Shown in pieces: positions 30,964 through 40,458 of a stretch of 64,000 nucleotides of DNA. A program made the translations under genes and the position numbers. The notes beneath the pieces are model-generated. The model was not told the origin of the DNA. It made no database searches and saw only the letters and a list, made by a program, of their open reading frames with translations. Within the stretch, counting starts at the first letter, position 1. Every line of letters begins with the position of its first letter. Source of the stretch: a virus; IMG/VR virus record IMGVR_UViG_3300044635_002180, positions 52,216-116,215 of that record, one strand, 5' to 3'.

Positions 30964-30971
30964 TATAAATA
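30964..30971 (+). promoter_or_regulatory. Late promoter, TATAAATA, 6 nt before ATG
   Basis: Plus strand reads TATAAATA-ACTACA-ATG at 30978. Confidence 0.8.
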
Positions 30972-30977
30972 ACTACA

Positions 30978-32549
30978 ATGGCATCACAAACACTAACAGA
31001 CCAAACAGTAGCTTCAACATATCAAGGCGTTTTGCATGCCAATGGAGAAGCATTGCCAGCCGTTTCTACAGCAATAATTTATGATGGCAGCGGACAAATT
31101 TCTTCTCTGAAATTGGGTGTTTCAGGTCAAGGAGCTGCTGTTGCAGGGGGGTTTTCATGCTCACAACAGCTGACAGCAGGTGAAATAAGATATACCACAG
31201 TAGATTCTGCATCTGGTGCCAACTTTCCGCTGGTTTCTGATGGAAACAAAACAGCAGTGTTTGGTCAAATGACATCAAATGCTCTTCTTGATCTCACACC
31301 AAGCCCTGCAGGAGAATATGGCAATATTCAATATTTAGCTGTTAACAGCAAGGGCTTAGTGACCAACGTTGTAGGTGGTCCTGCAACATCAAATGCTTGG
31401 GTTACTTTTGATGGCAAAGATGTATCTTTTACATATCTCATTAACAACTTGACAGTAACATGCACATCCATTGGGCATTCTTTGGTAACAGGCAATATAA
31501 TAACTGTAAAAAATGCAACAAACACTAGCCTCAATGGATCTTTTGTTGTTCAGTCTTCTGATATTCTCAATAATACGTTTACATTTGCTAATCCAACAGG
31601 AGCAACTACAGGTTCAGGTTCAGGCATTGTAGATGTAACAATTAAATCCAGCTACAATGTAAGCTCTGTTGTTCGTGAATCTGTAGGCATATACAAAGTA
31701 AATTTTGCTACAGAATTTAAGAACAAAGATTATGTTACGGTGTGTGGTGCAAAATATCCCAACGTTGCACGTACTGATTTGGAAAATTTGCAAGCAAATT
31801 CTGTGCTTGCACAAAAAGGCTATGTCAAAATAAGAAGCTTTTATATAACCAGTGGCGATCAAGTAATAGAATATGATGATGGTTACATCAGTGTTTATTG
31901 TTTAGGTAGCACAGTTGAGGATAATTCTCCAACTCCAGTATCTTTTGATAGTTTTATAAACACAAATGCTCATTGGTCTGAAGCAGCAGCACCTGCTGGC
32001 TCCACTATAACAGCAAGCATAACACCCGCTGTTATGTCAACCAACAAATGGAACATGGTCATCATTGGTGCATATGAGTCATTTAGTTGTGTCTCTGGCT
32101 GTCAAGGCATTGAGAGCAGAGTTGTTGTAAACGGTGCAACAACCTCGCAAATGAACCAGGGGTCATGCGGCAACTCTGGTGCTGAAACAGCTATATATCA
32201 TGTATTCATTTACACTAACAATGAATTAAAATATGCAAATTTTCATTGGACCAATTCTGGATGGAGCCCATATGTAACCAATGCATGGGATAGGCCCAAT
32301 AAAAATGCTGCTTTGGCTGCTTTCAATGGACTATATTCACAAGGTGCAATTGTTAATAATCAAATTGTCAATGTACAACAGAGTTCACCAGGAACATGGG
32401 TTACAAACTTTTTAAACTCATATGGTAGTGAATTTACAATAATACAATCAGCTGATGTAACATTTTACACTGTTGCTGGAAGAGCAAATCGATGCAATGG
32501 TGGATATGTTGTGTGGCAAAATTATATTAGATACTTTACCCCACAATAA
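30978..32549 (+). CDS. Tail fibre protein, Gly/Ser/Thr-rich
   Basis: 523 aa, dominated by beta strands with S/T/N/G bias. The N-terminus (TVASTYQGVLHANGEALPAV) is a fibre attachment segment; residues about 150-230 form an Ig- or hairpin-type unit with alternating strands (VTCTSIGHSLVTGNIITVKN), followed by SYNVSSVVRESVGIYKVNF, a motif also present at the end of the collar fibre. The C-terminal 200 residues (NKWNMVIIGAYESFSCVSGC onward) may be the receptor-binding part. No enzyme motif seen. Confidence 0.6.
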   Translation: MASQTLTDQTVASTYQGVLHANGEALPAVSTAIIYDGSGQISSLKLGVSGQGAAVAGGFSCSQQLTAGEIRYTTVDSASGANFPLVSDGNKTAVFGQMTSNALLDLTPSPAGEYGNIQYLAVNSKGLVTNVVGGPATSNAWVTFDGKDVSFTYLINNLTVTCTSIGHSLVTGNIITVKNATNTSLNGSFVVQSSDILNNTFTFANPTGATTGSGSGIVDVTIKSSYNVSSVVRESVGIYKVNFATEFKNKDYVTVCGAKYPNVARTDLENLQANSVLAQKGYVKIRSFYITSGDQVIEYDDGYISVYCLGSTVEDNSPTPVSFDSFINTNAHWSEAAAPAGSTITASITPAVMSTNKWNMVIIGAYESFSCVSGCQGIESRVVVNGATTSQMNQGSCGNSGAETAIYHVFIYTNNELKYANFHWTNSGWSPYVTNAWDRPNKNAALAAFNGLYSQGAIVNNQIVNVQQSSPGTWVTNFLNSYGSEFTIIQSADVTFYTVAGRANRCNGGYVVWQNYIRYFTPQ

Positions 32550-32554
32550 TTTTT

Positions 32555-33880
32555 ATGCCTGATATTAAAATAGTTAAATTAAAACTACGCCGTGGTACTG
32601 AAACTCAACGCAAATTGGTTGTTTTGGATCAAGGTGAACTTGGTTATGTGACTGATACCAAAAGAACATTTGTTGGGGATGGCAGCACTTTGGGAGGAAC
32701 TATAATTGGAACAAAAATCTTTACACCCATTGCAAGCAATAAAACAGGTTTAAATGCCTATACCGGTGATGTAGTTGTTGAAAATAATTTGATGTATCAA
32801 TTGACTGGCTCAAATGCTGGGCAACTTTCTGCATGGAAATTGATTAGCCCCATTGTTGACAATTCTACCATCAATTTTGATCCATCAAATGTCTTGCGCA
32901 TCAAACCTGATGGTGTGGGCATTGCTCAACTTGGCAATATTACTTACAATCTAGGCGGTATAGTAATGAACAACACTCAGGGACTGAGTGCAAATGTTGA
33001 TAAAACCACCATCATTGTTAATACATCTAATCAGCTTGCCATCAGCACTGTTTACGCCAGCAGCATCATTGGGCAAATCAACAACACTCAAATTAATACT
33101 GCCACTCTTGCTGGCAGTGCATTGCAGAGTACAGGAAATAAACTAGATGTTCAAGTGGATAATTCCACAATTGTAATATCTTCCAATCAATTGACAGTAG
33201 GAACGCTTGATGCTAGCAAGATCTCAACCGGAACCTTTGGTGCAACTCGCATTGATGCTTCTGTTGTAGGTCAGGGACTGCAGGGTGGTGCTGGTGTTGC
33301 AATTTCAACCAGCCTTGATCTCAACTCATTAGCATATAACAACAGCAACCAAATTGTACTCAACACACTTTATAAAGCTGCGCGCATTCCGCTCAGCTCA
33401 AATGACGTTAATTTTGGCGGCTTTACAACTAGCTATGCAACGGCTTCTGCATTAGCAACTATCAACAGTGCTTTGAGCACAGTAAGCACCATGATAATTA
33501 TTGGTACAGGCACAGGCTATACATCTACTCCATCCATCTCTGTTCAGCCACCATCAGCTGCACCAGGCTTCTTTCCTGCATCAGCAAGTGCTGTAGTTTA
33601 TAATGGGATGCTTTCTGCAATTACTATAACTAATGCAGGTTCGGGATATAATTTTGTACCGCAGATAATAATTGATCCACCACCTCATAGAGAGACATTG
33701 TATCAGGTGGTTACTGCAACTACTACAGGTGGTGTTATACCTGGGTCTCAAACATATCAATTATCATCTGCAGGCTTTGTCATGATGCATTTTGGCAGCG
33801 AGTTGGGAATTTTAGCCGTTCCTGTGTTTAAAGTGCCTACAGCATTGCAAAATTTAACAGTTGCTACTGTAACAGTGTAA
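32555..33880 (+). CDS. Tail fibre with Mtd-like N-terminal domain
   Basis: 441 aa. Residues about 9-50 (LKLRRGTETQRKLVVLDQGE, then LGYVTDTKRTFVGDGSTLGG) match the small N-terminal domain found at the start of phage tropism-determinant and hyaluronate-lyase-like fibres. The same domain opens the next fibre gene, so these two proteins share an attachment point. The middle part is a triple-helix-like series of Asn/Ser/Thr repeats (INTATLAGSALQSTGNKLDV and similar) and the C-terminus (SAGFVMMHFGSELGILAVPV) a compact tip. It starts 5 nt after the previous stop without a recognisable promoter, so it is co-transcribed with its predecessor. Confidence 0.65.
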   Translation: MPDIKIVKLKLRRGTETQRKLVVLDQGELGYVTDTKRTFVGDGSTLGGTIIGTKIFTPIASNKTGLNAYTGDVVVENNLMYQLTGSNAGQLSAWKLISPIVDNSTINFDPSNVLRIKPDGVGIAQLGNITYNLGGIVMNNTQGLSANVDKTTIIVNTSNQLAISTVYASSIIGQINNTQINTATLAGSALQSTGNKLDVQVDNSTIVISSNQLTVGTLDASKISTGTFGATRIDASVVGQGLQGGAGVAISTSLDLNSLAYNNSNQIVLNTLYKAARIPLSSNDVNFGGFTTSYATASALATINSALSTVSTMIIIGTGTGYTSTPSISVQPPSAAPGFFPASASAVVYNGMLSAITITNAGSGYNFVPQIIIDPPPHRETLYQVVTATTTGGVIPGSQTYQLSSAGFVMMHFGSELGILAVPVFKVPTALQNLTVATVTV

Positions 33881-33894
33881 ATTTAGCTGCATGC

Positions 33895-33902
33895 ATTAAA
33901 TA
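33895..33902 (+). promoter_or_regulatory. Late promoter, ATTAAATA, 5 nt before ATG
   Basis: Plus strand reads ATTAAATA-CAGGC-ATG at 33908. Confidence 0.7.
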
Positions 33903-33907
33903 CAGGC

Positions 33908-36493
33908 ATGAGTAGCGGTGCTAATAAAATTGAAATTACACAATCAACCCTTTTAAAACTTCTTGTTCGTCGTGGCTCCAATGAAGAGCGCAAAAACATA
34001 GTTTTATCAGAAGGTGAATTGGGGTATGCAGTTGATACAAAAAAACTTTTCGTTGGCGATGGTGCAACTGTGGGTGGTGTGCCTGTTACAACACAGGTTT
34101 ATTATGGTGCTACTCCACCAATTGCTTATAATGCAGCAACCACGGGTGATTTTGCTTATGATTCTACAGAAGGTGCTTTGTATGTATTAACAGGTGATGA
34201 TCCAACCATCATCGGCGATTGGGGAATTGTTGCTAATGATGTGCGTGTTGATGATGCAACAATGCAGTTGATAACATACAATGGTGTTCCAAATACTCTT
34301 GCTGTTAAGACTGTTAGCGCAGCACAGCTTGACCCAAATTTGCCTGGAACTGGTTTGGAATACAGTGGTGTGCCCATCAGAACAATTCAAACCACTGCAG
34401 ATCAAGCTTTTGATAGCATCAGTTTGCGCTCTGCTGCAGCATTGCAAATACCTACCACCTTACAATTCGGTACAGCTGGTGGAGCAACTCAATATTCAAT
34501 GCCACCCTTTGATGGTCCCAATGGATACTCATTAGTCACAAATGGTAATGGTGTTCTTGAATGGAAGCCTGGCAATTCTGTTACGGAGTATTTGGTTCTG
34601 ACTGGCAACCAAATACCAGTTGGCACAATATTACAGTTTGGATCTGGTGGCAACTTCCAACGAGCTGTTTCTAGTTATGATGTGCCTTATGGATATTTTT
34701 TATGTGATGGTAGAACGCTTTCAGGAACTCAGTATCAAGCTCTCTGTGAAGCAATTGGAACGTTTTATGGAACTGCATCTGCTGGAACATTCAAAATTCC
34801 ATCTTTGACTGCGTCTAATTACGTTTATCTCATCAAATACCTCGAGGATCAATACATTGAGCCTGTTACAATTTCTCTTGAAAACAGCCTCACTGGCTTA
34901 AACGTTACTGCATCAACATCGGTTTCATCTTTTGAAATTCCACAAAGTTCTGCTGTTGAAATTCGCTTGGGTGTTCCTGACTATGTTAGCAAGACTTATG
35001 TTGATTCTATTTTCTCCTCTTTGGTGGTTCAAAATACTGTTTACAAGCTAGCAAAAATGTCTGAACCTAATTGCAGCAATGGTATAAATGCTCTGGGCTT
35101 TACAGCATTCATAGACAAGCGTACCAAGGCATTGAGATTCAGCGGCTTGGATAGAAGTGGTACTGCCGGTATTAGCAACATACAAGGTAACTGCACTCCC
35201 ATCCTCATTGATTCACCCATAGAATATGGTGATGCATATGAGTGTGCAGAAGAGATATATGGTGCAGAAGCCACTACATTTGTAGTCACCAACAGTGGCA
35301 ATGTGTATGCAGCTGGTGATAATAATTATGGTATAAATGGCACAAACAATTCCGCCACAGGTGGTATAAATGCTGCAAATTCTAGATATACCAAACTTAC
35401 ATTCCCTGCGGGTGCAGGCAAGGTTACAAAAATAAGCATTGGTGGTGCTTGGTGGTATAGTGAAACATATTCTGTACGACATGCTTTTGCATTGACAGAA
35501 TCTGGCAGCGCATTTGCATGGGGTTATAATGGATATGGACAAACAGGCATTAATTCTTCGACAAATCAAGTAACATCACCAACTTCAACTCACACAGGTT
35601 CTCTTTCTGACAAATTAGTAAGCAAGATATATTCATTCTGTGGCAATACCTATGGTTATTCTTTTGCCATTGATACATCTGGTGGTGTGCATGCTTGTGG
35701 TTATGGTGGTAGTTATAATTTCGGCAACAACTCAACAGCAAATATAGATACAGGGTGGAGAAGCTTAAATAGAACTGCAGATGAAATTTATGCTGCAGTT
35801 GGTTCTCCCTACCACACCACATACTTGCTCTCTGGTGGCAGGTTGTGGGGTTGTGGATATAACTATGGATACCAAATTGGCAGAGCAACCGGTGAAACAT
35901 ACATTACCACTTTTGTGCCAGTTAGCTCCAGCAGCACAAGCTTTACACAGCTTACTGGTGTATCTGCTCTCTCCATAAGTGATAATTATGGTGGATCCTG
36001 CACAATAATTGCTTTGATGCAAGATCAGACCATAAGAACATGGGGATATAATAACAGTGGGCAGTGCGGAACGGGTACCACATCTGAGTATATAACAGCT
36101 CCTGCTTCTAACATATCTTCCGGTGGTGGATTTGCAAATGCAGGCATAGTTAAAATAAAAGCTCATGGATATTATCCGTATAGTTCAGTTTTTGTTATGA
36201 ATTCTGCTGGGCAAATTTGGAGCACTGGATACAATGGCTATGGTCAATTGGGCAATGCCAACACAGGATCAAATTCTAGCTTCTTTACCAGAGTAAAACA
36301 GCCGCGTGGAGTAACTTACAAAGATTTCAACATCTATGCTGAATATAATGTAATTGAATCCTACACTGTACTTGCAGTAGATGCAAATGATAATTTATAT
36401 GCTTGGGGTGGAAACTTTTACTCACAGTGTGGGTTTGCCAACTACCCAAATTTGAATTATTACGGAACTCCACTAAAAATTAACTTCAATTAA
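33908..36493 (+). CDS. Tail fibre: Mtd-like N-domain, tail collar and RCC1-like propeller
   Basis: 861 aa with three parts. Residues about 15-60 (LVRRGSNEERKNIVLSEGEL, then GYAVDTKKLFVGDG) are the shared N-terminal attachment domain. Residues about 235-300 (PVGTILQFGSGGNFQRAVSS, GYFLCDGRTLSGTQYQALCE) are a tail-collar domain. Residues about 430-855 carry at least six RCC1-type repeats: VVTNSGNVYAAGDNNYGING, ALTESGSAFAWGYNGYGQTG, AIDTSGGVHACGYGGSYNFG, MNSAGQIWSTGYNGYGQLGN and others. RCC1 repeats make a seven-bladed propeller that binds proteins or surfaces; at the distal end of a fibre it is a candidate receptor-binding domain. Its stop overlaps the start of the next gene (TAATG). Confidence 0.75.
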   Translation: MSSGANKIEITQSTLLKLLVRRGSNEERKNIVLSEGELGYAVDTKKLFVGDGATVGGVPVTTQVYYGATPPIAYNAATTGDFAYDSTEGALYVLTGDDPTIIGDWGIVANDVRVDDATMQLITYNGVPNTLAVKTVSAAQLDPNLPGTGLEYSGVPIRTIQTTADQAFDSISLRSAAALQIPTTLQFGTAGGATQYSMPPFDGPNGYSLVTNGNGVLEWKPGNSVTEYLVLTGNQIPVGTILQFGSGGNFQRAVSSYDVPYGYFLCDGRTLSGTQYQALCEAIGTFYGTASAGTFKIPSLTASNYVYLIKYLEDQYIEPVTISLENSLTGLNVTASTSVSSFEIPQSSAVEIRLGVPDYVSKTYVDSIFSSLVVQNTVYKLAKMSEPNCSNGINALGFTAFIDKRTKALRFSGLDRSGTAGISNIQGNCTPILIDSPIEYGDAYECAEEIYGAEATTFVVTNSGNVYAAGDNNYGINGTNNSATGGINAANSRYTKLTFPAGAGKVTKISIGGAWWYSETYSVRHAFALTESGSAFAWGYNGYGQTGINSSTNQVTSPTSTHTGSLSDKLVSKIYSFCGNTYGYSFAIDTSGGVHACGYGGSYNFGNNSTANIDTGWRSLNRTADEIYAAVGSPYHTTYLLSGGRLWGCGYNYGYQIGRATGETYITTFVPVSSSSTSFTQLTGVSALSISDNYGGSCTIIALMQDQTIRTWGYNNSGQCGTGTTSEYITAPASNISSGGGFANAGIVKIKAHGYYPYSSVFVMNSAGQIWSTGYNGYGQLGNANTGSNSSFFTRVKQPRGVTYKDFNIYAEYNVIESYTVLAVDANDNLYAWGGNFYSQCGFANYPNLNYYGTPLKINFN

Positions 36494-38721
36494 TGTCTAG
36501 CACAGTCATATCAACATCAGCAGCTGCAGCAAGCATTGCATTTGCGCAAGCATACAATGCATATCAGGACATCACATGGTCTTTGCAATACACTCTCTGT
36601 GGTGATGCAAATGCACAAGGTGGTTTTTGTGCTTTTTTGTATGGTGCTCCTGATTTGACGCCAGGTGGCATTGGCAAGTCTTTGGGGTTTGCGCCATCTC
36701 AAAATTATACTGGATTCACCAATGTATCCGGCATTAGTGGTGCAATTGTTGGCATAGGATTGGATAGCCTTGGCTTGTTTGCTGTTTCTGGAAATGGCAT
36801 GTCAACTGGCATTGATGCTTCTCAAGCTATTCGCAATGCTATAACCATCAGAACCGGAACTAATTTTACCTTTTTAACTACATTTGCAGCCACTGCTTTT
36901 GATTCCACATTTACAGTTGTTCAATCATCTGCAGCATTGCAGCAGTTGCGATTCAGACTTACAGAAGCAAGCAATGCTATAGAAATAGCACAATGGAATG
37001 GTGATGCATATGATGTTTGGTGCAATGTTCCTGTTTCGTTGAACTTGCCTGCATCTGCTTTTTGCAGAGCAGGCTTTTCATTTGCTGCACCTCTCTGTGG
37101 AAATGTTGCTGCAGCTAAGTTTGGCATTGCAAATGCACATTTTGAGGGATCATTGCAGCAACCAACTCAGCAAATTGTAGAACCACCACTGCAATGCAAA
37201 TTGCCTGTTGTATCAAATATCAATGTTGCAACACCAAATTCAATAACAATACACCCCAACATTGAAACACTGGGTGGAGCTTATGCACCCATTGAACCAC
37301 CAACACCATTGCCTGATCCATGTGATGCTCAACCTACTGCTACAGTCAAATGCGGTGAAAATATTTCTTATGTTGGTGAACGCGGCACCTTTTATTATTA
37401 CATTGATGCTGGTGAAGCAACAGGCGAATTTACCATTGCATATGATGCTTATACCATCCCAGATAGATTTACACTTACATGGAACAATCAAGTAGCTACA
37501 TCATGCTTTGTTGGTGATTCAAGCTTTAATGCTGAATTATCTGCACTTGGCTATGGACCTGTTGCTTCAACAGGCAGAGGGTTGCTTAAAATTAACAAAA
37601 CTTTGAGCAATCCACGAATTGTGGAATTGCGCGTTGATGGTCCGTTGGAGGGAACTGCATGGGAAGTTCAGGTATTGTGCATACCAACACCACAGCCACA
37701 ATTGTTGCTTTATAGGGGCACAAATACATCTCCAGCTAACCTCATTAATAATTTTGACAGCATCAACTTTGGTACATTTAATTTGGGACAATCTGCTCAA
37801 CAGATTTTCACCATTAAAAACAATGGTGATGCAAATTTAAATTCTTTTAGCTTGGTGCAGCTGCTCACTGCATCATTTTCGCAATACAAAGTTGGCATTC
37901 CAATTACTTCAGCTGCAGTTGCACCAAATGGTTCAACTACTTTTGCCATTAATTTTACTCCAACATTAACAGGAAACAACAACAGTCGATTTGATCTGTA
38001 TAGTAATGATGCAAAAAGTCCCATTACTTTTAATCTTAGTGCCATTGTTCTTAGTGATGCTATTCCATTGTGTGCATGCAATTCAGAAATTGATTATAGT
38101 GGAGATCAAGGTGTATTTACATACAACATAGATTATGGTTCTGATGTTGGTGACATCAACATCGAATACAATTCATTTAGCATCCCAGATAGATTTACAC
38201 TCAACTGGAATGGCATAAGTGCAACTACAGGTTTTGTTGGAGATGCTACATACAATAGTCAGTTGACTGCCTTGGGTTATCCGCCTGTTTCTTCAACAAC
38301 AAGCAGTGGCATTTTATCTGTTGCTAAAACATCAGCAGAACCTCAGTATGCTACATTAACAGTTGAAGGACCGCTTGTGGGAACAGCATGGTATATTGAA
38401 TCAAGTTGTATAGCAGCTCCTACAACAACAACTACCACAACACCACCTCCAACAACACCACCTCCAACAACGCCACCACCTACCACAACAACTACCACAA
38501 CAACTACAACAACAACTACAACAACAACTACAACAACAACTACAACAACAACTACCAGCACAACTACCAGCACAACTACCAGCACAACTACCAGCACAAC
38601 TACCAGCACAACTACCAGCACAACTACCAGCACAACAACCAGCACAACAACCAGCACAACTACCAGCACAACTACCAGCACAACTACCAGCACAACAACA
38701 AGTACAACAACACTACCGTAA
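36493..38721 (+). CDS. Tail surface protein with duplicated beta domain and mucin-like Thr tail
   Basis: 742 aa. Residues 1-280 are a beta-rich domain (YQDITWSLQYTLCGDANAQG). Two related units follow, at about 287-398 (CGENISYVGERGTFYYYIDA ... IPDRFTLTWNNQVAT) and 528-640 (CNSEIDYSGDQGVFTYNIDY ... IPDRFTLNWNGISAT), separated by an Ig-like unit of HYDIN type (about 405-520, INFGTFNLGQSAQQIFTIKN). Residues 644-742 are almost only Thr, Ser and Pro: PPPTT blocks, a poly-Thr run and about 13 TTTS units. Such a stalk is typical of O-glycosylated mucin-like linkers. It is co-translated with the RCC1 fibre and followed 41 nt later by two glycosyltransferase-like genes. Confidence 0.7.
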   Translation: MSSTVISTSAAAASIAFAQAYNAYQDITWSLQYTLCGDANAQGGFCAFLYGAPDLTPGGIGKSLGFAPSQNYTGFTNVSGISGAIVGIGLDSLGLFAVSGNGMSTGIDASQAIRNAITIRTGTNFTFLTTFAATAFDSTFTVVQSSAALQQLRFRLTEASNAIEIAQWNGDAYDVWCNVPVSLNLPASAFCRAGFSFAAPLCGNVAAAKFGIANAHFEGSLQQPTQQIVEPPLQCKLPVVSNINVATPNSITIHPNIETLGGAYAPIEPPTPLPDPCDAQPTATVKCGENISYVGERGTFYYYIDAGEATGEFTIAYDAYTIPDRFTLTWNNQVATSCFVGDSSFNAELSALGYGPVASTGRGLLKINKTLSNPRIVELRVDGPLEGTAWEVQVLCIPTPQPQLLLYRGTNTSPANLINNFDSINFGTFNLGQSAQQIFTIKNNGDANLNSFSLVQLLTASFSQYKVGIPITSAAVAPNGSTTFAINFTPTLTGNNNSRFDLYSNDAKSPITFNLSAIVLSDAIPLCACNSEIDYSGDQGVFTYNIDYGSDVGDINIEYNSFSIPDRFTLNWNGISATTGFVGDATYNSQLTALGYPPVSSTTSSGILSVAKTSAEPQYATLTVEGPLVGTAWYIESSCIAAPTTTTTTTPPPTTPPPTTPPPTTTTTTTTTTTTTTTTTTTTTTTTTSTTTSTTTSTTTSTTTSTTTSTTTSTTTSTTTSTTTSTTTSTTTSTTTSTTTLP
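38422..38718 (+). repeat. Thr-codon minisatellite, 12-bp unit ACAACTACCAGC
   Basis: In-frame tandem repeat coding for the Thr/Ser/Pro tail: three CCACCTCCAACA-like blocks, a run of Thr codons (ACA/ACT/ACC), then about 13 copies of a 12-bp unit coding TTTS with C-to-A variants. Length variation between related phages by slippage would change tail length without frameshift. Confidence 0.9.
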
Positions 38722-38748
38722 TATATTGTTGAAAGTAGAAATGCTTTA

Positions 38749-38756
38749 GGTAAATA
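38749..38756 (+). promoter_or_regulatory. Late promoter, GGTAAATA, 6 nt before ATG
   Basis: Plus strand reads GGTAAATA-TTTTAA-ATG at 38763, so the glycosyltransferase pair has its own late promoter. Confidence 0.6.
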
Positions 38757-38762
38757 TTTTAA

Positions 38763-39602
38763 ATGAAGAAGCTAACCATTGGAATGTCAACTTATGATGA
38801 TTATGATGGTGTATATTTTTCTATACAGTCGTTAAAGATGTATCAACTTGATTTTTTAAATAATGACTATGAAATAATAGTTTTAGATAATAATCCAAAT
38901 TCACAGCATGGTAGAGAGGTTAAAAATTTCGTTCAAAACTGGGCTAAAGGTATGTATATTCCATATACAGAAAAAATAAGTACGTTTACAAAATATGAAA
39001 TTTTTAAATACGCACGGGGTGAATATACATTATGTCTTGATTCACACGTGTTATTACAACCTAATGGTGTTAAAAATTTAATGGAGTATTATTCAAAAAA
39101 TCCTAATACGAAAAATCTAATACAGGGACCATTATGGTATGATGATTTAAATAGTATATCCACACATTTCGATCCGGTGTGGCGTGGAACTATGTACGGA
39201 ACATGGGGAACGAATAAAGATTTATATGAAAAGCAGGATCCATTTGAAATTTCTCTTATGGGAATGGGCATGTTTTCTTGCAAGACATCCGAGTGGCCGG
39301 GTATAAATCAAAATTTTATAGGCTTTGGAGGAGAGGAAGGATATGTACATGAGAAGTTTCGTGAAGCAGGTGGCAAGTGCATTTGTCTTCCTACAGTAAA
39401 ATGGAACCACAGGTTTGGTAGACCTAATGGAGTTCCATATCCTAATGTACTTGAGGATAGAATTTGGAACTACTTTGTCGGGTGGTTAGAAATATTAAAA
39501 GATCCTGGAGATCCTTTTTTTCAATCAATTTTTGATGCCTTTAAGGATGCAGTACCGCATAAAGTCATAAGTAATTTATTTGAAAAAGCTAAACAACTAT
39601 GA
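38763..39602 (+). CDS. GT-A glycosyltransferase with DxH motif (GT2/GT27-like)
   Basis: 279 aa. The N-terminus (KLTIGMSTYDDYDGVYFSIQ ... IIVLDNNPNS) is the nucleotide-sugar-binding half of a GT-A fold. The metal-binding motif is D93-S94-H95 (LCLDSHVLLQP), DxH instead of DxD, as in polypeptide GalNAc-transferases (GT27). Residues 187-220 (GFGGEEGYVHEKFREAGGKC, then LPTVKWNHRFGR) parallel the GT27 GGEN..E.SFR.W.CGG....PCS.V.H.FR motif. The preceding gene encodes a long Thr/Ser tail, an obvious acceptor. Base composition is more AT-rich than neighbouring genes, suggesting acquisition. The sugar and acceptor are inferred, not shown. Confidence 0.75.
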   Translation: MKKLTIGMSTYDDYDGVYFSIQSLKMYQLDFLNNDYEIIVLDNNPNSQHGREVKNFVQNWAKGMYIPYTEKISTFTKYEIFKYARGEYTLCLDSHVLLQPNGVKNLMEYYSKNPNTKNLIQGPLWYDDLNSISTHFDPVWRGTMYGTWGTNKDLYEKQDPFEISLMGMGMFSCKTSEWPGINQNFIGFGGEEGYVHEKFREAGGKCICLPTVKWNHRFGRPNGVPYPNVLEDRIWNYFVGWLEILKDPGDPFFQSIFDAFKDAVPHKVISNLFEKAKQL

Positions 39603-40258
39603 ATGTTTTGTATATAGGTAGTGGTAATTCTGCAAAATACGTGCATCAACTAGATCATACTAAATACATAACTGTGTGTGTAAATAACGCATGGCGGTTA
39701 TTTACAGATAATAAAGTTTTTGATTATTGGTTACATTCAGGTGATTTTCCGCACGAAAATTATCCTAATAAAAAAAATTTTAAATATGAAATTTCGAATG
39801 AGGAATATGAAGCATCTATTAAAAATTTAGTTTATAATAAATTAAAGTTAAAAGAATCATCACCATGTCATTATGTTGGCTATACTATTTTTTTTATAGG
39901 GTTGCATTGGATAATGCATGAAATATCACCTGCAAATATATTCTTATTAGGATTTGATCATGATTATAATCGGAATAAAACGCAAAAATGGCTTAATAAC
40001 GGACAACCCAACCCTCAAAACCAATATCTAAAAGATACATCAAAAAGTATAAAAGAGTGGTCTGATAATTTTTTTTATGAATTTGAACATGATTTTTTTT
40101 ACGGGCATGGTACACCTGATCCAATGAGATTGGGTGAAAATTACATAAAAGAAAAATTTTTTCAGGCTGCTAATACTGCAAGACAGTTAAATGTAAATAT
40201 TTTTAATGCTTCTTTAGCAGATGGGAGTTTAAATATATTTCCGAAAATTAAAATATGA
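39599..40258 (+). CDS. Possible glycosyltransferase, DUF115/sialyltransferase-like fold
   Basis: 219 aa, coupled by ATGA to the GT-A gene. The start MNVLYIGSGNSAKYVHQLD is a Rossmann-type G-x-G loop; VCVNNAW and a later IFLLGFDHDYN (x-x-G-x-D) are arranged as in CstII-type sialyltransferases and DUF115 proteins, where a GN loop binds the nucleotide sugar. The region after that is rich in His, Asp and Asn. As the second enzyme of the pair it could extend a sugar added by the first. Same AT-rich composition as its partner. Family assignment is tentative. Confidence 0.45.
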   Translation: MNVLYIGSGNSAKYVHQLDHTKYITVCVNNAWRLFTDNKVFDYWLHSGDFPHENYPNKKNFKYEISNEEYEASIKNLVYNKLKLKESSPCHYVGYTIFFIGLHWIMHEISPANIFLLGFDHDYNRNKTQKWLNNGQPNPQNQYLKDTSKSIKEWSDNFFYEFEHDFFYGHGTPDPMRLGENYIKEKFFQAANTARQLNVNIFNASLADGSLNIFPKIKI

Positions 40259-40458
40259 AACTAGAACAAGGCAAAATTGTAAAGTGGGAAAATTCTTCTA
40301 AACAGCAAATTGTTTGGATGGTGTGTGATGATGCTGCATCTGGTGTTGTTGTACACTCTGATCATTTGATGCGCATTGGCACTATCACACGCAACTTGCA
40401 AGAATATAATGTTAAACCATTTGTTGGCACAGTAAACATTAGTTCAGCAGCAAATTAA
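40255..40458 (+). CDS. Small conserved-type phage protein
   Basis: 67 aa, ATGA-coupled to the preceding gene; beta-rich (QGKIVKWENSSKQQIVWMVC, GVVVHSDHLMRIGT) with the look of a small SH3- or OB-like barrel. Composition returns to that of the phage core, unlike the two glycosyltransferase genes. It is convergent with, and overlaps by 4 nt, the minus-strand gene at 40455. Function unknown. Confidence 0.55.
   Translation: MKLEQGKIVKWENSSKQQIVWMVCDDAASGVVVHSDHLMRIGTITRNLQEYNVKPFVGTVNISSAAN

Follow-up and report, generated by a model that had tools for sequence, protein, structure and literature searches.

The DNA analysed here (the window) comprises 64,000 nucleotides and forms the final 64 kb of the 116,215-bp virus record IMGVR_UViG_3300044635_002180 of IMG/VR; positions refer to the window unless the record is named, and other loci are designated by L numbers. 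The subject of this analysis is a cassette at 36493-40258, in which the gene of a tail or surface protein of 742 amino acids (aa) with a threonine-rich end is followed by genes for a glycosyltransferase (GT) of 279 aa and an enzyme of 219 aa. The features of the cassette, including the counterparts of the GT motifs in the N-acetylgalactosamine (GalNAc) transferase GalNAc-T2, are as follows.

36493..38721, plus strand: 742-aa tail/surface protein with an Ig-like HYDIN-type domain, a duplicated PHROG_13374-like domain and a C-terminal Thr/Ser/Pro tract; proposed acceptor
38413..38718, plus strand: mucin-like tract of 102 residues, recognised from the composition of the C-terminus of the 742-aa protein
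38763..39602, plus strand: 279-aa soluble GT-A glycosyltransferase with a GT27-like fold (from Pfam, alignment and predicted structure); proposed initiating O-glycosyltransferase
39039..39047, plus strand: D93-S-H95, DxH metal motif; counterpart in GalNAc-T2, D224-S-H226
39327..39338, plus strand: G-G-E191-E192; counterpart in GalNAc-T2, G-G-E334-N335
39408..39410, plus strand: H216, third metal ligand; counterpart in GalNAc-T2, H359
39599..40258, plus strand: 219-aa orphan enzyme, weakly sialyltransferase-like (PHROG 4603); proposed glycan extender

An earlier note on this DNA had described a Thr/Pro/Ser-rich end of about 100 residues in a surface protein, and exact coordinates could be assigned to it: the 102 C-terminal residues of the 742-aa protein were counted as 75 T, 13 S, 11 P, 2 A and 1 L. 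Within the tract, 25 Thr occur in a row, STTT units number 13 and PPPTT blocks are also present, and it is the sole (Thr)10 tract of the complete 116-kb viral record. Its Thr codons are mixed (43 ACA, 16 ACT, 15 ACC and 1 ACG), and in the relative L003 36 Thr are coded by 11 ACT, 9 ACC, 8 ACA and 8 ACG. A degenerate 12-bp period is detectable in the DNA of the tract. Such mixing, seen here as well as in relatives, favours selection acting on the amino acid over selection acting on a DNA repeat, and the tract is not the product of simple DNA slippage.

The GT gene begins 42 bp 3' of the gene for the 742-aa protein. Its product matches Glycos_transf_2 (PF00535) with an expectation value (E) of 2.6e-7 and 31.1 bits, compared with a curated cut-off of 23.3, and is the only Glycos_transf_2 protein of the record. 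No membrane segment was found in it, the maximum hydropathy over 19 aa being 0.51. The DSH in place of DxD and the GGEE and KWNHRF segments pointed out in the earlier note were located as D93-S-H95, F-G-G-E191-E192 and K-W-N-H216-R-F, all of which vary little or not at all among 48 relatives. The four residues D93, H95, E191 and H216 do not vary among these and stay almost constant in relatives as distant as 31% identity. It has been reported that the manganese ligands of GalNAc-T2 are D224, H226 and H359 and that E334 touches the acceptor peptide (PMC4432651). The spacing from E191 to H216 is 25 residues, the same as the Glu-to-His spacing of GalNAc-T2.

The structure of the GT was predicted with AlphaFold2 from the 48-sequence alignment, and the model was confident, with a predicted local distance difference test score (pLDDT) of 95.4. 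When it was compared with the PDB using Foldseek, 50 of the top 50 matches were polypeptide GalNAc-transferases (E about 1e-13), with template modelling scores of 0.73-0.75 over the query for the best of them. GalNAc-transferases are overrepresented in the PDB, yet they came ahead of all other GT-A enzymes by E-value. The predicted fold thus aligns with polypeptide GalNAc-transferases, as the earlier note had supposed, and not with lipid- or DNA-directed enzymes. An unguided alignment superposed the DxH, GGE and His motifs of the phage family and GalNAc-T2 with a score that was not significant, and a PDB profile search with the family returned GT2 enzymes and no GT27.

The GC content is 33% in the GT gene and 28% in the 219-aa gene, and about 40% in neighbouring tail genes. 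However, the GC content at third codon positions (GC3) of the GT gene (0.246) is level with its neighbours (0.25-0.30), and because of this only the 219-aa gene looks compositionally foreign. A recent acquisition of the GT was not supported, since its GC3 matches that of the neighbours and relatives have copies 76-77% identical, of which one is arranged identically.

No relatives of the GT were found in the isolate phages of INPHARED. In IMG/VR, relatives at 50-77% identity were confirmed in 86 cases in one scan, and 544 were obtained with a wider pattern. Most of the close ones lie in a conserved replication operon with the order DnaB helicase, primase, deoxynucleoside monophosphate (dNMP) kinase, nuclease, GT and then Pol III genes, where the gene names are our reading of the translations. 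In L024, L075 and 48 similar loci, from a large group of uncultured phages, the GT is apparently fixed in this operon (with split Pol III alpha, and epsilon). Outside the replication operon, a (Thr)10 tract was found in 13 of 30 viral GT loci, compared with 4 of 239 control viral loci (p = 5e-11), and the Thr-rich carriers near viral GTs are largely non-homologous proteins. The GT begins 43, 38, 40 and 26 bp after the Thr-rich gene in L003, L004, L006 and L032. At the contig level, (Thr)10 was present in 18 of 31 GT contigs and in 3 of 32 controls of at least 50 kb; the three control matches were ACC-rich repeats in contigs selected for poly-Gly, the complement of poly-Gly repeats.

The link was also approached from the substrate side, using 120 viral loci chosen only by a 16-Thr tract, and therefore not by the enzyme, together with controls of equal total length. 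The GT family was present in 7 of the 120 poly-Thr loci, compared with 0 of 119 poly-Gly and 0 of 120 poly-Ser loci (Fisher p = 4e-4). In L149, L172 and L188, which belong to unrelated phages, diverged GTs (31-46% identical) begin behind the Thr-rich gene at distances of 19, 78 and 35 bp, and in L191 the GT likewise starts 19-78 bp 3' of a poly-Thr gene. Among 128 genes downstream of random poly-Thr genes, only one Glycos_transf_2 was found (Pfam GT family count), so poly-Thr genes are generally not associated with GTs and the link is specific to the family of the 279-aa GT.

A scan of GTDB genomes gave 115 relatives of the GT, and the best 80 are mostly 40-50% identical. Their hosts are alphaproteobacteria, desulfobacterota, gammaproteobacteria, actinobacteria, acidobacteria and others. 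In bacteria the GT mostly occupies the C-terminal portion of a larger protein, whose N-terminal domain is HprK-related in proteobacterial examples. A Thr-rich protein was found near the GT in 38 of 76 bacterial loci, and the Thr-rich genes peak on the same strand in the kilobase directly preceding the GT (17 of 67 loci, compared with 0 at 2-5 kb upstream). The co-occurrence of the enzyme family with Thr-rich proteins, which the earlier note proposed to survey, was thus found well in excess of controls, among bacteria as well as among unrelated phages. Many of the bacterial Thr-rich proteins are 75-160 aa long, with an RR-containing leader ending near PAHA and followed by Thr repeats, and 2 of 5 small ones tested pass the NCBI cut-off for a twin-arginine translocation (Tat) signal. 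A glycosylation step in the cytoplasm would be in keeping with Tat export, if the cargo is already folded or modified when exported. In the 76 bacterial loci the counts of other neighbours were 36 for PqqD-like, 18 for NTP_transf_5-like and 10 for GalE-like genes. Fusions of an HprK-related domain with the GT, with PqqD-like or NTP_transf_5 neighbours and small RR-leader proteins rich in Thr, Pro or Ser, were seen in L595, L597, L605, L649 and others; L668 has a poly-Ser version, and L628 has a leader protein without Thr repeats.

A tree of the family was built by a quick method, and many of its forks are weak. With rows more than 80% identical removed, members linked to Thr account for 13 of the 51 viral rows and 35 of the 63 bacterial rows. 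Most of the deepest viral branches are Thr-linked, whereas members from the replication operon all fall within a single phage clade. The tree thus suggests that the replication-operon position is derived from an older state linked to Thr.

Based on these results, the cassette is probably a phage-encoded mucin-like protein O-glycosylation unit acting on the Thr tail of a virion protein. This is supported by the genes, the fold similarity, the conserved catalytic residues and the recurrent linkage to Thr-rich proteins in phages and bacteria. The acceptor, the occurrence of the reaction, the part played by the second enzyme and the benefit are our inferences. In this scheme, the soluble 279-aa GT-A enzyme would move a sugar from a nucleotide donor to Thr, perhaps Ser, in the tract of the 742-aa protein while the tail is being assembled or earlier, within the cytoplasm of the host. 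This first sugar would probably be extended or capped by the 219-aa enzyme. Particles would thereby carry a rigid stalk or tip coated with sugar, which may give protection or altered adsorption. The mucin-type decoration proposed in the earlier note is thus kept as the best explanation, whereas GalNAc as the sugar, a sialyltransferase as the second enzyme and formal GT27 membership did not find support.

Several findings weigh against this explanation. In 50 of 80 close viral loci the GT lies inside the replication operon and not beside a Thr-rich gene, and in a helicase-seeded scan it was present in 46 of 46 loci reaching the site. Some replication-operon contigs have no (Thr)10 tract, though all of them are fragments. 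Of the 120 poly-Thr viral loci, 113 have no GT of this family nearby, which means that poly-Thr does not require the GT. The viral contigs are partly redundant, and the p-values given here are therefore approximate. No significant profile similarity to GT27 was found, with an hhalign probability below 1% against one GalNAc-T2 sequence, and the ricin-type lectin domain of GT27 is absent from the 279-aa enzyme. Among replication-operon contigs of at least 50 kb, (Thr)10 was found elsewhere in 7 of 13, compared with 3 of 32 controls (p = 0.003), and the GT of these phages may therefore act in trans.

Three other explanations were considered. Phage GT2 enzymes that modify host surface glycans are common, and the N-terminal half of the GT resembles generic family-2 enzymes, including the GtrB-like PHROG 22739 (E 0.0012) and polysaccharide synthases. 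The GT could accordingly modify surface polysaccharide or lipid-linked glycans of the host, as in serotype conversion or superinfection exclusion, with its place behind the poly-Thr gene being incidental. This is unlikely: the enzyme has no membrane segment, unlike GtrB-type lipid-linked glucosyltransferases, its fold matches are polypeptide transferases, and it would be left unexplained why the GT lies next to Thr-rich proteins again and again, both in bacteria and in unrelated phages. It is quite unlikely that the enzyme is a protein glycosyltransferase for another virion or host protein and that the poly-Thr tract is a passive spacer. Most poly-Thr viral loci indeed have no GT nearby, and the acceptor is not obvious for the replication-operon members, but only tracts of Thr, as opposed to Ser or Gly, show the association, and it was seen with many unrelated carrier proteins in both phages and bacteria.

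The fixed position between nuclease/dNMP kinase and Pol III genes, in the same 46 of 46 loci, would agree with a GT that decorates phage DNA (hypermodified bases), and phage GTs glycosylating DNA exist according to Pyle et al. (2024), as cited in PMC12619734. However, no gene of the thymidylate synthase/hydroxymethylase family (PF00303) was found in 18 GT-bearing contigs, and the TAGT family was seen only below threshold, in two contigs, and was absent from the contig studied here. Furthermore, the fold is GT27-like, and the bacterial members sit with Thr-rich proteins, some of them with Tat signals. A DNA-directed role is thus very unlikely.

For the protein O-glycosylation unit favoured here, the identity of the sugar as GalNAc was not supported, and the phage carries genes for deoxythymidine diphosphate (dTDP) sugars. 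RmlD-like, RmlB and RmlA-like genes lie beside structural genes at 31403-34111 of the record, outside the window (L673 7404-10112). RmlB (dTDP-glucose 4,6-dehydratase) scores above the NCBI cut-off, and the RmlD identification is our reading of the sequence. Because these three genes are encoded in the record, a dTDP-deoxyhexose is a live alternative donor to uridine diphosphate (UDP)-GalNAc. The genes rmlA and rmlB were rejected as a constant partner of the GT: among the GT contigs, rmlA, and rmlB above the cut-off, occur only in this record. Since they are not common to the other GT contigs, they are not a required partner.

The 219-aa protein has a weak match to the sialyltransferase-like PHROG 4603 (E 0.0012), no Pfam match and no meaningful PDB match, and no relatives of it were found in phages or IMG/VR. 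Its single-sequence structure model was unusable (pLDDT 39). With this weak match and this model, its assignment as a sialyltransferase is a weak one. The gene is followed by a conserved one.

40255..40458, plus strand: 67-aa conserved protein closing a variable slot; also in L003, L004 and L006 (66-67 aa)

The slot between the GT and the 66-67-aa gene contains the 219-aa orphan in the window; in L003, L004 and L006 it holds a polysialyltransferase-like gene plus another, a GT29 sialyltransferase (E 2e-18), or nothing. In other loci the gene behind the GT is a sulfotransferase fusion (L002), GT29 (L009) or GT6 (L046), the last being of the histo-blood-group type. The GT29 sialyltransferase matches directly behind the GT lie at L004:8851-9417 and L009:3125-3688, with E about 1e-18. 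A variable glycan coat would call for just such a combination, in which the initiating enzyme stays the same and the second one can be exchanged. In L150 (1113-8591), a poly-Thr/Ser-Pro tail protein is followed by a series of genes of glycan type, with a TylF-like methyltransferase and GT8, and finally by the GT27-like enzyme.

The cassette lies at the end of a plus-strand tail-gene array (30978-40458) with intergenic gaps of at most 42 bp. Two proteins of the array have an Mtd_N domain; one of them, the 861-aa tail protein at 33908-36493, unites Mtd_N with tail-collar and RCC1 repeats (beta-propeller). The array is headed by the following element.

30964..30971, plus strand: late-promoter-like octamer TATAAATA, at the head of the tail-gene array reaching 40458

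The scan for promoter motifs was limited to TATAAATA, which has 9 matches in the window compared with 4.2 expected and is thus weak evidence for a promoter. The copy at 30964 is the closest one 5' of the cassette and heads the tight same-strand array through 40458. The "one late promoter" of the earlier note is thus supported only in part. The DNA primase of the phage is a distant relative (~27% identity) of T4-like gp61, from cyanophages and others. The same phage also encodes a Thr/Asn-rich 300-aa protein of TTNNGTVTTN-type repeats (L673 18096-18998, minus strand).

The pairing of this enzyme with Thr-rich proteins across phages and bacteria points to an undescribed prokaryotic system of mucin-like protein glycosylation. 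In the literature on mucin-like Thr glycosylation by GT27-like enzymes in phages and bacteria, in which few subscription papers were covered, the GT family was not found described; isolated GT27-type annotations have been mentioned in prokaryotes (PMC10939349; PMC12741103). We tentatively put forward a wider system in which a widespread DxH GT-A family, HprK-fused or PqqD-adjacent in bacteria, would glycosylate, in the bacterial cytoplasm, the poly-Thr tails of tiny, partly Tat-exported 'mini-mucins', and phages would sugar-coat their tail proteins with it and vary the coat by swapping the downstream enzyme (GT29, GT6, sulfotransferase or orphan); this is possible, though we would not call it probable. 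If true, phages and bacteria would own a mucin-like O-glycosylation machinery with the enzyme and substrate genes side by side, and one soluble enzyme with one Thr repeat would make a simple testable pair. It may then explain the so far unexplained poly-Thr tracts in some phage tail proteins, suggest a phage route to surface variation without protein change, and provide a prokaryotic relative bearing on the origin of animal mucin glycosylation.

Among known systems, many of the bacterial members resemble the 'HPr-rel-A' neighbourhoods of NCBI (HprK-related kinase, PqqD-family chaperone and nucleotidyltransferase) in their HprK-related fusion and PqqD-like/NTP_transf_5 neighbours. However, the bacterial HprK and PqqD scores are under the NCBI equivalog cut-offs, and the phage version lacks these partners. 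It has been reported that mycobacteriophage virions carry glycans on the C-termini of capsid and tail-tube proteins as a shield (Freeman et al. 2023, as cited in PMC12619734). Phage particle proteins as glycan acceptors, presumed here, would be common to both, and the GT gene adjoins a tail gene here. The mycobacteriophage acceptors are capsid and tail-tube subunits, whereas here a mucin-like tail with 75 Thr is presumed; this comparison, as far as the citing paper reports that work, concerns the acceptors.

GT27 and GT60 both act on polypeptides. They are GT-A families with DxH replacing DxD and belong to the same GT-A clade as GT7 (PMC7185993). The GT60 polypeptide N-acetylglucosamine (GlcNAc) transferases of protists and some prokaryotes share the DxH motif with the phage GT, but no match to the GlcNAc family PF11397 was found in the 279-aa GT at E up to 1, only PF00535, and viral models annotated as GlcNAc transferases score far under the family's own member. 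GT27 performs mucin-type O-glycosylation in animals and apicomplexans, whereas a cytoplasmic enzyme in a prokaryotic setting is proposed here. The phage GT also has no membrane anchor, its identity to GT27 is ~16% without significant profile similarity, and the phage family has Glu after GGE where GT27 has Asn. Significant sequence similarity and the lectin domain were looked for without success, and for this reason the phage GT is not filed as a formal member of GT27, yet it is predicted to work like GT27: it has in this family its closest solved fold, and it shares with it the DxH metal motif with the C-terminal His, the GGE motif with identical Glu-to-His spacing and, presumably, a Thr/Pro/Ser-rich acceptor.

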